A DNA stretch of 33,820 bases from Gammaproteobacteria bacterium. Lineage in GTDB: Bacteria > Pseudomonadota > Gammaproteobacteria > SZUA-152. Location: positions 1 through 33,820 of the forward strand of contig JAVVEP010000018.1 of assembly GCA_032250735.1 (NCBI GenBank), in the 5' to 3' direction. The first letter of the stretch is position 1; each line of letters opens with the position of its first letter. The translations under genes and the position numbers were made by a program. Under the pieces are notes generated by a model that ran no database searches, had not been told where the DNA came from, and was given only the letters and a program-made list of their open reading frames with translations. Positions 27,244-33,820 of the stretch are shown here, in pieces.

Positions 27244-28665
<1,422 letters not shown>

Positions 28666-28674
28666 ATTTCATTT

Positions 28675-28697
28675 TCCTTTTTGCATGATCTAAAGGA
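28675..28697 (-). promoter_or_regulatory. Shine-Dalgarno-sequestering hairpin of ahcY
   Basis: In the leader RNA UCCUUU (28697-28692) can pair perfectly with AAAGGA (28680-28675), the ribosome binding site of ahcY. The loop is 11 bases. This is a possible translational expression platform for the SAH riboswitch upstream. Confidence 0.5.
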
Positions 28698-28734
28698 GAC
28701 CTGGTTAAGTTCTTTATCGTCACTCTGATGACAA

Positions 28735-28787
28735 CCAGAATCCAATCGCATTTAATTAGCTTCCTGGATTCTGGCATGCGCCAGAAT
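28735..28787 (-). promoter_or_regulatory. competing hairpins in the ahcY leader
   Basis: ATTCTGGC and GCCAGAAT (28768-28787) form a perfect 8 bp stem with a 4-base loop. The segment GGATTCTGG (28766-28774) can instead pair with CCAGAATCC (28735-28743), 9 bp, so the two stems exclude each other. A GTCA/TGAC stem follows. It may be a dispersed repeat that has inserted between aptamer and gene. Confidence 0.5.
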
Positions 28788-28815
28788 GACGGATACAGGT
28801 TTCCTAAAAGGTTGA

Positions 28816-28893
28816 ATGAGCACCGTTACTATTTGTTAATGACATCTTCTGAGCCTCGCGGTGGTAATAAAAAAACCGCTGCAGCGCTCCTCA
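28816..28893 (-). promoter_or_regulatory. S-adenosylhomocysteine (SAH) riboswitch
   Basis: On the minus strand GAGGAGCGCTGC is followed by a GCGG/CCGC hairpin, then GAGGCTCA and, further on, AACGGTGCTCA. This matches the SAH aptamer consensus (GAGGAGCGCUGC, AGGCUCG, AACGGCGCUC), including the pseudoknot pairing of GAGCGC with GGTGCTC and of TGAG with CTCA. SAH riboswitches turn on ahcY when SAH builds up. The aptamer ends about 150 nt before the ahcY start, which is further than usual. Confidence 0.87.
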
Positions 28894-28908
28894 CAAGATA
28901 TATAAATT

Positions 28909-28975
28909 GTAGGGTGGGCACCGCCCACCTTGCAGGTCTAACTAAATTTTGATTGGTGGGCGATGCCCACCCTAC
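28909..28975. repeat. inverted pair of REP family 2 hairpins
   Basis: GTAG is followed by GGTGGGC-ACC-GCCCACC, a 7 bp stem with a 3-base loop. The right half is the same element inverted (GTAG then GGTGGGC-ATC-GCCCACC on the minus strand). Together they form a BIME-like unit with a 25-base AT-rich middle, 16 bp upstream of the SAH aptamer. Confidence 0.9.
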
Positions 28976-29021
28976 TCACTAAGTAAAACCTTCAGCCCGG
29001 GTTCTTAATCTAATCTCTTCG

Positions 29022-29036
29022 CCCAGTCCTTAGTCA
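29022..29036 (+). repeat. two heptamer units CCCAGTC and CTTAGTC
   Basis: CCCAGTC and CTTAGTC lie in phase directly before a REP. The same two heptamers occur within manC on the coding strand. Confidence 0.6.
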
Positions 29037-29039
29037 TAC

Positions 29040-29070
29040 GGCGCAATGCCCTGCGGTTATTGCGCCCTAC
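29040..29070 (+). repeat. REP palindrome, family 1
   Basis: Full 31 bp core with perfect arms, CCCTGCGG centre and CTAC end. It lies between the two family 2 inverted pairs, so two REP families are interleaved here. Confidence 0.92.
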
Positions 29071-29084
29071 GGGTTGAGTCTTCT

Positions 29085-29149
29085 GTAGGGTGGGCACCGC
29101 CCACCATGTTATGTTTTAGCGATTTGCTGGTGGGCGATGCCCACCCTAC
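29085..29149. repeat. inverted pair of REP family 2 hairpins, second copy
   Basis: The same design as 28909-28975: GTAG-GGTGGGC-ACC-GCCCACC on the left and its ATC version inverted on the right. The middle sequence differs, so the arms are what is conserved. It lies 22 bp after the metK stop and may also end metK transcripts. Confidence 0.9.
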
Positions 29150-29150
29150 A

Positions 29151-29167
29151 CCCAGCCCTCAGTCCTT
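29151..29167 (+). repeat. degenerate heptamers CCCAGCC, CTCAGTC
   Basis: A short run of the same heptamer class as at 29022 and in manC, between the family 2 pair and the end of metK. Confidence 0.5.
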
Positions 29168-29171
29168 TCTT

Positions 29172-30332
29172 TTAAATCCCCGCAGCGTCCCGCAGGGCGT
29201 CTGCCTTGTCGGTGACTTCCCAGGGGAAGCCTTCGTCTTCTCGTCCGAAATGGCCGTAGGCGGCGGTGGCGGAGTAGATGGGGCGCAACAGATTGAGCAT
29301 TTTCACCAGGCCACCGGCCCGCAGGTCGAAGTGCTCGCGCACCAGCTCGACGATGCGGCTGTCTTCCACCTTGCCGGTACCGAAGGTCTCGACGCTGATG
29401 GAGGTCGGCTCGGAGACGCCGATGGCGTAGGAGACCTGGATCTCGCAGCGGTCGGCCAGTCCGGCGGCGACGATGTTCTTCGCCACGTAACGCCCGGCAT
29501 AAGCGGCGGAACGGTCTACTTTAGACGGATCTTTGCCGGAAAAGGCTCCACCGCCGTGGCGCGCCATGCCGCCGTAGGTATCGACGATGATCTTGCGTCC
29601 GGTCAGGCCGCAGTCGCCCACGGGGCCACCGATAACAAAGCGGCCGGTGGGGTTGATATGGTATTTGGTGTCGGCCGTCAGCCACTCTGCCGGCAGCACG
29701 GGTTTGATGATCTCGTCCATCACCGCTTCGCGCAGCGTGGGGGTGTCAATCTCTTCGCTGTGCTGGGTGGAAAGCACCACGGCGTCGATGGCGACCGGGC
29801 GGTTGTCTTCGTAACGGAAGGTCACCTGGCTTTTGGCGTCCGGGCGCAACCAGGGCAAGGTGCCGTTTTTGCGCACCTCGGCCTGACGCTTCACCAGGCG
29901 GTGGGCGTAGGTGATGGGTGCGGGCATCAGCACCTCGGTCTCGTGGCTGGCGTAGCCGAACATCAGGCCCTGGTCACCGGCGCCCTGCTCGTGGCTGTCG
30001 TATTCGTCCACACCCATGGCGATATCGGCGGACTGCTTGTCGATGGAGGTCAGCACTGCGCAGGATTCATAATCGAAGCCCATGTCGGAGCTGTTATAGC
30101 CGATGCGCTTGACGGTTTCGCGTACCACCGCCTGCATATCCACCCAGGCGGAGGTCGTGATCTCGCCGGCGATGATGACCATGCCGGTGTTGACCAGGGT
30201 CTCGCAGGCTACGCGGGCAGCGGTGTCCTGCTCCAGGATAGCGTCGAGGATAGCGTCGGAAATCTGGTCTGCGACCTTGTCGGGGTGTCCCTCGGAAACG
30301 GATTCGGAGGTAAATAGATGTGAACTCGCCAT
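29172..30332 (-). CDS. metK: S-adenosylmethionine synthase
   Basis: Makes SAM from ATP and methionine. The 386 residues have all main signatures: [18 protein letters not shown] near the start (His and metal Asp), [31 protein letters not shown] and [18 protein letters not shown] (P-loop). Length is normal. AAAGGA is upstream of the ATG. No SAM riboswitch is seen in the 104 bp between it and manC. Together with ahcY and metF it forms the methyl cycle. A family 2 REP pair follows the gene. Confidence 0.97.
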
Positions 30333-32800: not shown

Positions 32801-33328
32801 ATGGATTACAGACGAGCCTGGCACCCAGGTGGTACCTACTTCTTTACCGTCAACCTGCTGCAGCGGCGTGATAATGATTTATTGATACGGCATATAGACG
32901 CCTTGCGTGCCACAGTCCGTTCGGTCAAATCACGACATCCATTTGTGATTCATGGATGGGTCATTCTCCCCGAACACCTCCATTGCATATTTGAATTGCC
33001 AGCGGGCGACACCGATTTTTCCACCCGCTGGCGTCTGATCAAATCTGATTTTTCAAAGACGCTGCCAATAACAGAAAGAAGATCAAAAGTGAGGCAAGGC
33101 CGAGGCGAACGGGGCGTATGGCAAAGACGTTTCTGGGAACACCTCATTCGTGACGAGCATGACTATCGTGCCCATATGGATTACGTACACATCAATCCCG
33201 TGAAACACGGATTAGTGAAGTGCGTACGCGACTGGCCGTATTCAACATTTCATCACCTGGTTAAGCAAGGCATGTATCCCATTGATTGGGCAGGAGGCCA
33301 CGAAAAGGGGTTGGGATATGATGATTGA
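32801..33328 (+). CDS. REP-associated tyrosine transposase (RAYT, Y1_Tnp)
   Basis: A full-length IS200-like single-strand nuclease of 175 residues. It starts with [22 protein letters not shown], carries the HUH motif in [12 protein letters not shown] (H-x-H) and the catalytic Tyr in [31 protein letters not shown] is also typical of RAYTs. Such proteins bind and cleave GTAG-hairpin REPs. It lies 28 bp after an inverted REP and 13 bp before a tandem REP array, so the matching substrate is next to it. It is one of only two forward-strand genes. No frameshift or stop is seen, so it may be active. Confidence 0.95.
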
Positions 33329-33341
33329 TACACGACCATGC

Positions 33342-33820
33342 GGCGCAATGCCCTTCGGTTATTGCGCCCTACGGAGGGAGCGATTGGTCTGTCTTGACGA
33401 TGTCGCTTTGGGGCTCAAGCGGCGCAATGCCCTTCGGTTATTGCGCCCTACGGAGGGGAGCGATTGGTCTATCTTGACGATGTCGCTTTGGGGGCTCATG
33501 CGGCGCAATGCCCTTCGGTTATTGCGCCCTACGGAGGGGGCGATTGGTCTATCTTGACGATGTCGCTTTGGGGCTCATGCGGCGCAATGCCCTTCGGTTA
33601 TTGCACCCTACGGAGGGGGCGATTGGTCTATCTTGACGATGTCGCTTTGGGGCTCATGCGGCGCAATGCCCTTCGGTTATTGCGCCCTACGGAGGGGAGC
33701 GATTGGTCTATCTTGACGATGTCGCTTTGGGGGCTCATGCGGCGCAATGCCCTTCGGTTATTGCGCCCTACGGAGGGGGCGATTGGTCTATCTTGACGAT
33801 GTCGCTTTGGGGCTCATGCG
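33342..33820 (+). repeat. tandem array of 79-81 bp REP units
   Basis: Family 1 REP cores start at 33342, 33421, 33502, 33581, 33660 and 33741, and a seventh begins at the last base of the window. The spacings are 79, 81, 79, 79, 81 and 79. Each unit is a 31 bp REP with a CCCTTCGG centre plus a conserved spacer (GCGATTGGTCTATCTTGACG then ATGTCGCTTTGGGG). Unit 1 is the most diverged. Units 2 and 5 share the same length variants, and the fourth core (33581) has ATTGCACC. Confidence 0.95.

Follow-up and report, generated by a model that had tools for sequence, protein, structure and literature searches.

The window, by which we mean the whole 33,820-nucleotide stretch of DNA analysed here, carries an S-adenosylhomocysteine (SAH) riboswitch aptamer followed by a long leader and ahcY. 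The initial annotation, made from the letters alone, had proposed that this leader holds two candidate switching layers and a hairpin segment, apparently an inserted repeat, that may have joined the control. The locus thus raises the question of whether the repeat has become part of the control of ahcY or is carried along by an ordinary switch.

The SAH aptamer and the length of the ahcY leader

The genes and the aptamer on which the analysis rests are the following:
27244-28665, minus strand: ahcY, S-adenosylhomocysteine hydrolase (PF05221, 4.8e-154)
28811-28898, minus strand: SAH riboswitch aptamer (RF01057), full-length covariance-model match by cmscan
29172-30332, minus strand: metK, upstream and in the same direction (Pfam PF00438, PF02772, PF02773)

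The order on the minus strand is metK (30332-29172), a gap of 273 nt, the aptamer (28898-28811), a leader of 145 nt and ahcY (28665-27244). The cmscan match to RF01057 covered model positions 1-78 of 78 and scored 47.5 bits against a gathering cut-off of 37, and it is placed in the leader of ahcY, which starts at 28665 and encodes a PF05221 protein. By sequence and position the element is thus assigned to RF01057, as had been proposed, and is predicted to bind SAH; as a riboswitch it is ordinary. A search of the source genome, a draft of 61 contigs, found this single SAH riboswitch. The closest named relatives of AhcY include uncultured Gammaproteobacteria, Chromatiales and Ectothiorhodospiraceae MAGs. 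The normally constant CCAGGC of the aptamer reads CGAGGC here, and a G at the second place also occurs in two loci of the same family (L027 and L029).

Leader length, counted from the aptamer end to the ATG, was compared with three partly overlapping sets of loci, and the 145 nt of the window exceeded every leader in all of them, which upheld the earlier description of the leader (about 150 nt) as unusually long. Leaders of the same family measured 15-64 nt (n = 18 with a readable start, from 20 loci after setting aside the window and L011, whose contig ends before the ATG). Those of named genomes measured 14-82 nt (n = 65; 80 loci were fetched, 67 had the aptamer near ahcY, and L137 and L141 were dropped for having no start 3' of the aptamer). 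Those of the class sample measured 11-114 nt with a median of 21 (n = 129 among the matches listed, left from 136 aptamer places of which 7 had no ahcY within 400 nt; in one source search 154 of 369 genomes matched). Start codons were assigned by script without individual inspection, so that single distances may be off, for example the three longest of the class set (112-114 nt). The commonest length among congeners is 52 nt, 93 nt shorter than the leader of the window. Three congener leaders (L014, L019 and L030) are identical, and two of them (L014 and L030) come from different contigs of a single genome (G004), where one ahcY riboswitch locus appears twice, probably as an assembly or binning duplicate.

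A CGTC REP pair in the leader

The DNA by which the leader exceeds those of its congeners contains these elements:
28718-28791, minus strand: CGTC-tagged REP inverted pair (REPIN-like), 74 nt, identified by alignment with 13 other pairs from the genome and its relatives and by family counts
28764-28791, minus strand: REP 1, 8-bp stem and 4-nt loop, the hairpin initially reported at 28768-28787
28718-28745, plus strand: REP 2, inverted and diverged, its 8-bp stem kept on the mRNA strand via G-U pairs
28687-28717, minus strand: additional leader DNA on the 3' side of the REP pair, about 31 nt, missing from the aligned congeners and partly like the flanks of other REP pairs (GTTAAC...); likeness and borders by eye

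Alignment with eight congener leaders placed the insertion point between 'GTATC' and 'ATGCAAAAAGG', the exact borders being set by eye, and the insert was absent from all 10 congener genomes that have the SAH riboswitch-ahcY locus. The copy as a whole had no close second match in the genome (31 bits for the runner-up, against 141). The REP pattern itself matched 12 times in the same genome (6 times with a narrower pattern) and was present in all 11 congeners searched, with 3 to 172 matches each (172 in G005, 109 in G011), counts in which both strands of a near-palindrome can be scored apart; reversed-pattern controls gave 0. The 13 other REP pairs that align with the insert have the tag, the short stems and the spacer in common with it.

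According to the available text of Di Nocera and colleagues (2013; PMC3733652), CGTC REPs are defined by a CGTC tag, a stem of 8-9 bp, a loop of 4-5 nt and a 3-nt tail, and occur mostly as HH dimers without a dedicated transposase. The insert of the window has the CGTC tag, an 8-bp stem, a 4-nt loop, the 3-nt tail and an inverted (HH) arrangement with a short spacer, and its family is dispersed and multicopy; it is a member of this kind. It differs in its place, since the window pair lies between an aptamer and its Shine-Dalgarno sequence (SD) whereas the published REPs, in the same text, lie predominantly downstream of coding regions. The earlier suggestion that a repeat had inserted into the leader is therefore supported, and the repeat can now be named as a CGTC REP inverted pair of a family known from this genome and its genus. 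The mobile unit may have exceeded the REP pair, since the flank on its 3' side resembles, by eye, the GTTAAC-containing flanks of other pairs. A loose motif search for a CGTC REP pair in the stretches of the named-genome and class sets (the latter among the matches listed) flagged 5 entries, none of them real by eye, and reading the family-set leaders by eye revealed none.

The pair also resembles the REPINs described in 2011 (PMC3116915) as inverted REP doublets, for which either a single long hairpin or a fold with two hairpins is predicted. In the available part of that paper REPINs are associated with RAYTs that neighbour the same class of REP; here neither of the two RAYT homologues checked, out of five, had a CGTC REP at its flanks. 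These two (C18 and C8), the close ones beside three distant homologues, were flanked by GTAG-type REPs. The RAYT in the window, at 32801-33328 (REP-associated tyrosine transposase, NCBIfam NF047646, 208 bits; no Pfam family at 0.001), was considered as mobiliser of the CGTC REP and rejected on the ground that its flanks carry the different, GTAG-type REP. The flanking repeats are of the GTAGGGCGCAATAACCG type, with a tandem array at 33342-33771; those beside the second RAYT, on C8, are of the GTAGGGTGGGC type.

Two mutually exclusive stems had been proposed for this segment, one at 28768-28787 and one joining 28735-28743 with 28766-28774. The former is exactly the 8-bp hairpin of REP 1, and the latter, a perfect 9-bp complement, is part of a long hairpin between REP 1 and REP 2; REP 2 (28745-28718) also keeps a local 8-bp stem with a 4-nt loop, which the initial annotation did not include. 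The pair folded at -39.5 kcal/mol when unrestricted and at -24.1 kcal/mol when pairs were limited to a span of 30 nt, so that the long hairpin is favoured by about 15 kcal/mol. For comparison, 20 stretches were fetched around other REP matches, and the 13 that gave a pair by the motif of the script were folded. The long form was better in 13 of 13, by 10 to 30 kcal/mol, and both single hairpins also formed in 12 of them under the restricted fold, the exception being L166, where the first hairpin failed. The 2013 paper on CGTC REPs (PMC3733652) states, in its available text, that dimer partners may fold separately or as one large stem-loop. The exclusivity of the two stems is real, and it is a property of the repeat. 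The two pairings thus exist and exclude each other as proposed; their role as a switch was rejected, because they are generic to such pairs and of very unequal energy, and because removal of the pair had no predicted effect.

The stem at the Shine-Dalgarno sequence

A 6-bp stem hiding the SD had been the other proposed element of control. The segments that bear on it, with their partners, are:
28815-28819, minus strand: UCAUU, outer part of the platform stem, sharing bases with the pseudoknot strand at its 3' end; possible partner AAUGA at 28673-28669 (from the duplex and the relatives; 0.13 probable in the window ensemble)
28806-28811, minus strand: CCUUUU, anti-SD strand, pairing with 28681-28676 (mean probability 0.81; same geometry in congeners)
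28796-28805, minus strand: 5' arm of the inner stem (AGGAAACCUG), pairing with 28703-28694 with one mismatch (minimum free energy, MFE, fold)
28694-28703, minus strand: 3' arm of the inner stem (CAGGUCUCCU), in DNA missing from the eight aligned congener leaders (MFE fold)
28676-28681, minus strand: AAAAGG, SD side of the 6-bp stem, 10 nt upstream of the ATG

Throughout the genus, with small variations, GAAUGA and AAAAAG around the SD are opposed by UCAUUC and CUUUUU, which follow the pseudoknot strand directly on its 3' side. Genus leaders combine UCAUUC...CUUUUU with AAAAAGGAGAAUGA, or have close variants, and it is between these two arms that the insert lies. In a covariation test the 5' segment of each leader was paired with its own 3' segment or with that of another leader. 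Own segments bound at -11.4 and swapped ones at -8.2 kcal/mol (67 distinct leaders), and in the class sample, among the matches listed, the values were -10.46 and -7.44 kcal/mol (109 leaders of 12-45 nt) or, after dereplication, -10.35 and -7.37 kcal/mol (70 leaders). In each case 0 of 20000 permutations reached the observed mean, in tests that take the two segments out of their context and from which relatedness is only partly removed. Several betaproteobacterial leaders (54-82 nt) fitted poorly in the named-genome pairing test and may use another arrangement. The arms of the window paired at -8.2 kcal/mol, more weakly than those of all 8 distinct congener leaders (-8.3 to -12.7), and 44 of 66 swapped partners bound better than the native one. 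The MFE fold of the window pairs the pseudoknot strand with the start-codon region rather than forming the outer UCAUU:AAUGA duplex.

The predicted stem of CCUUUU (28811-28806) with AAAAGG (28681-28676) bears out the earlier proposal of a 6-bp stem over the SD. It predates the insert and is part of the ancestral platform, since in relatives the SD and start region is paired by the strand at the 3' end of the pseudoknot.

The effect of the insert was then followed in silico, all folding being done with equilibrium models without pseudoknot energies. Leader and aptamer together folded better than 200 of 200 shuffles (z -3.86), and the REP pair accounted for about half of the folding energy (MFE -78.3 kcal/mol with the pair, -38.7 without). 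The SD stem had a probability of 0.81 in the native leader; deleting the REP pair alone gave 0.83, and deleting all of the insert gave 0.75. Accessibility of the SD and the AUG stayed at 0.34 and 0.31 upon removal of the REP pair and came to 0.41 and 0.31 upon removal of the whole insert. The proposal of two switching layers is consequently not supported, and no evidence was found that the repeat has joined the control.

Replacing the insert by 200 dinucleotide shuffles lowered the mean stem probability to 0.28, and 16 of the 200 equalled or exceeded the observed 0.81. With 200 other stretches of the window, drawn from positions 1-27000 on either strand regardless of genes, the mean was 0.26 and 11 reached the observed value. 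By SD accessibility, 19 of the shuffles and 23 of the window stretches hid the SD as well as or better than the real insert. Since most replacements of the same length open the stem, the self-folding insert is predicted to keep this long-range stem closed where most such sequences would not, a capacity that is not unique to it.

When the aptamer was constrained by barring its pseudoknot strands from pairing elsewhere, with P1 and P2 left free, the start codon of the window responded, with AUG accessibility rising from 0.31 to 0.75, and the SD hardly did (0.34 to 0.41). The 6-bp stem was still 0.64 probable in this state. Across 19 family leaders, three of them identical and the window included, the same constraint raised AUG accessibility in 17, left it equal in 1 and lowered it in 1, whereas SD accessibility rose in 11 and fell in 8. 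The anti-SD and anti-start pairing is kept in relatives and predicted in the window, with a modelled coupling to the ligand that is clear for the AUG and not for the SD. That SD accessibility alone fails to separate the ligand states in the family perhaps comes from the missing pseudoknot energies.

Passenger or part of the control

We consider it likely that the locus is an ordinary SAH-responsive translational ON switch of ahcY that tolerates a self-folding mobile REP pair as a passenger, with no second switch. The ON direction follows the title of the original SAH riboswitch paper (2008) and the general view of this class. Without SAH, UCAUU...CCUUUU, which lies at and just 3' of the 3' half of the pseudoknot, would pair with the SD and start region, and the pseudoknot strand itself could pair with the start codons; bound SAH would hold this strand in the aptamer and so free the start region. 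In the lineage of the window a CGTC-type REP inverted pair and its flank entered the loop that separates the anti-SD strand from the SD. Self-folding of the insert would still let both halves of the SD stem meet, and by prediction the switch works much as in relatives despite the insert. The aptamer match, the identity of the repeat, its place of insertion and the platform pairing conserved in relatives come directly from the comparisons above; from these we infer the ON direction, the translational mode and the tolerance of the insert.

Compared with other members of RF01057, the window thus has the full aptamer match before ahcY and, as in relatives, a pseudoknot strand that overlaps the anti-SD and anti-start strand; it is unlike them in having a 145-nt leader with a REP pair in the platform loop, where the comparison leaders have 11-114 nt and no such pair was seen by loose motif search or by eye. 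A partial precedent is the BOX element of the pneumococcal trp operon (PMC3049150, 2011), likewise a dispersed repeat inside a riboswitch leader, which the available part of that paper describes as thought to fold largely independently with control retained. That element lies between two whole T-box riboswitches, whereas the REP pair lies inside the loop of an expression platform. Judged from titles and the openings of abstracts, the listed papers on riboswitches with REP or transposable elements described no such insert beyond the BOX/T-box case, and no paper treating both REPINs and riboswitches was found; within these sources a REP pair in an SAH riboswitch platform is a new combination. 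The locus offers a clear natural case of a mobile hairpin that landed in the control loop of a riboswitch, and sister species that lack the insert can be compared with it. The case suggests that repeats able to fold on themselves may persist in leaders because they hold remote pairing partners near each other, and it allows a direct test of how leader length affects the kinetics of a translational riboswitch.

The REP pair might instead have been co-opted as a second control layer, by its two folds or by an imposed pause or delay that, for example, gives SAH longer to bind ahead of SD synthesis. The two exclusive folds do exist, the extra 93 nt of leader delay the SD, and both departures of REP 2 from perfect complementarity are G-U pairs on the mRNA strand (by eye), a weak hint of constraint at the RNA level. 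We nevertheless hold co-option to be quite unlikely, given that the folds are generic and unequal, that predicted accessibility is the same after removal of the pair, and that 0 of 10 congener genomes with the locus have the insert. It is more doubtful still that the pair has been built into the platform, joining anti-SD and SD over a distance, delaying SD synthesis and giving SAH a longer decision time than in the sister species. A passenger role is thus the most likely one, and a kinetic role is possible. Damage to the switch by the insertion, leaving ahcY constitutively low or high and the aptamer decaying, is unlikely as well. The aptamer has the lowest score within its genus (47.5 bits, next 50.2), the SD is weakened (AAGGAA in place of AAGGAG) and the platform arms are weaker; yet the aptamer still stands 10 bits above gathering with a pairable pseudoknot strand, and the SD stem is still predicted. 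Moreover, the C-to-T change in its pseudoknot strand also occurs in L025, which has no insert, and L029, a family member from another genus, scores lower still (43.9 bits). The weaker arms, the AAGGAA and the CGAGGC of the aptamer make a partial decay of the switch possible.

Least probable, and in our view very improbable, is that the leader is not transcribed from upstream and that ahcY starts inside or 3' of the REP pair. In 20 of 20 family loci, among them the window, metK is found no more than 600 nt upstream of the aptamer. The distance between its stop and the aptamer is 26 nt in 7 of the 11 other loci of the genus (L008, L009, L012, L014, L019, L020 and L030), that is, in 6 of 10 other congener genomes with the locus, as L014 and L030 come from one genome. 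A transcript shared by metK and ahcY is therefore probably a frequent setting for the switch. Two GTAG-type REP pairs lie in the 273-nt gap of the window, together with one REP of a third family, and the pairs may reduce read-through from metK, which speaks for an internal start. Against it, the aptamer is kept, and 0 sigma-70-like sites were found on either strand of 28640-29200 (0.8 expected), a result that gives no promoter site for the long leader either.

The GTAG-type inverted pairs of the gap lie at 28909-28975 and 29085-29149 (57 pattern matches in the genome), and the REP of another GTAG family at 29040-29070 (102 matches). A terminator in the leader was rejected, the only such site in 28640-29200 sitting in a GTAG REP on the other strand (1 found, 0.5 expected). 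In three g3 relatives (L010, L016 and L026) other palindromic repeats were seen by eye just upstream of the aptamer. According to the available text of a 2014 survey (PMC4239095), SAH riboswitches do not control metK. In eight loci (L093, L103, L104, L106, L115, L140, L141 and L146) the SAH aptamer lies directly upstream of metK, followed by ahcY, and in L250 it lies directly upstream of a metK called by eye. In L222, L252 and L261 the aptamer is followed by an apparent metH, again by eye.
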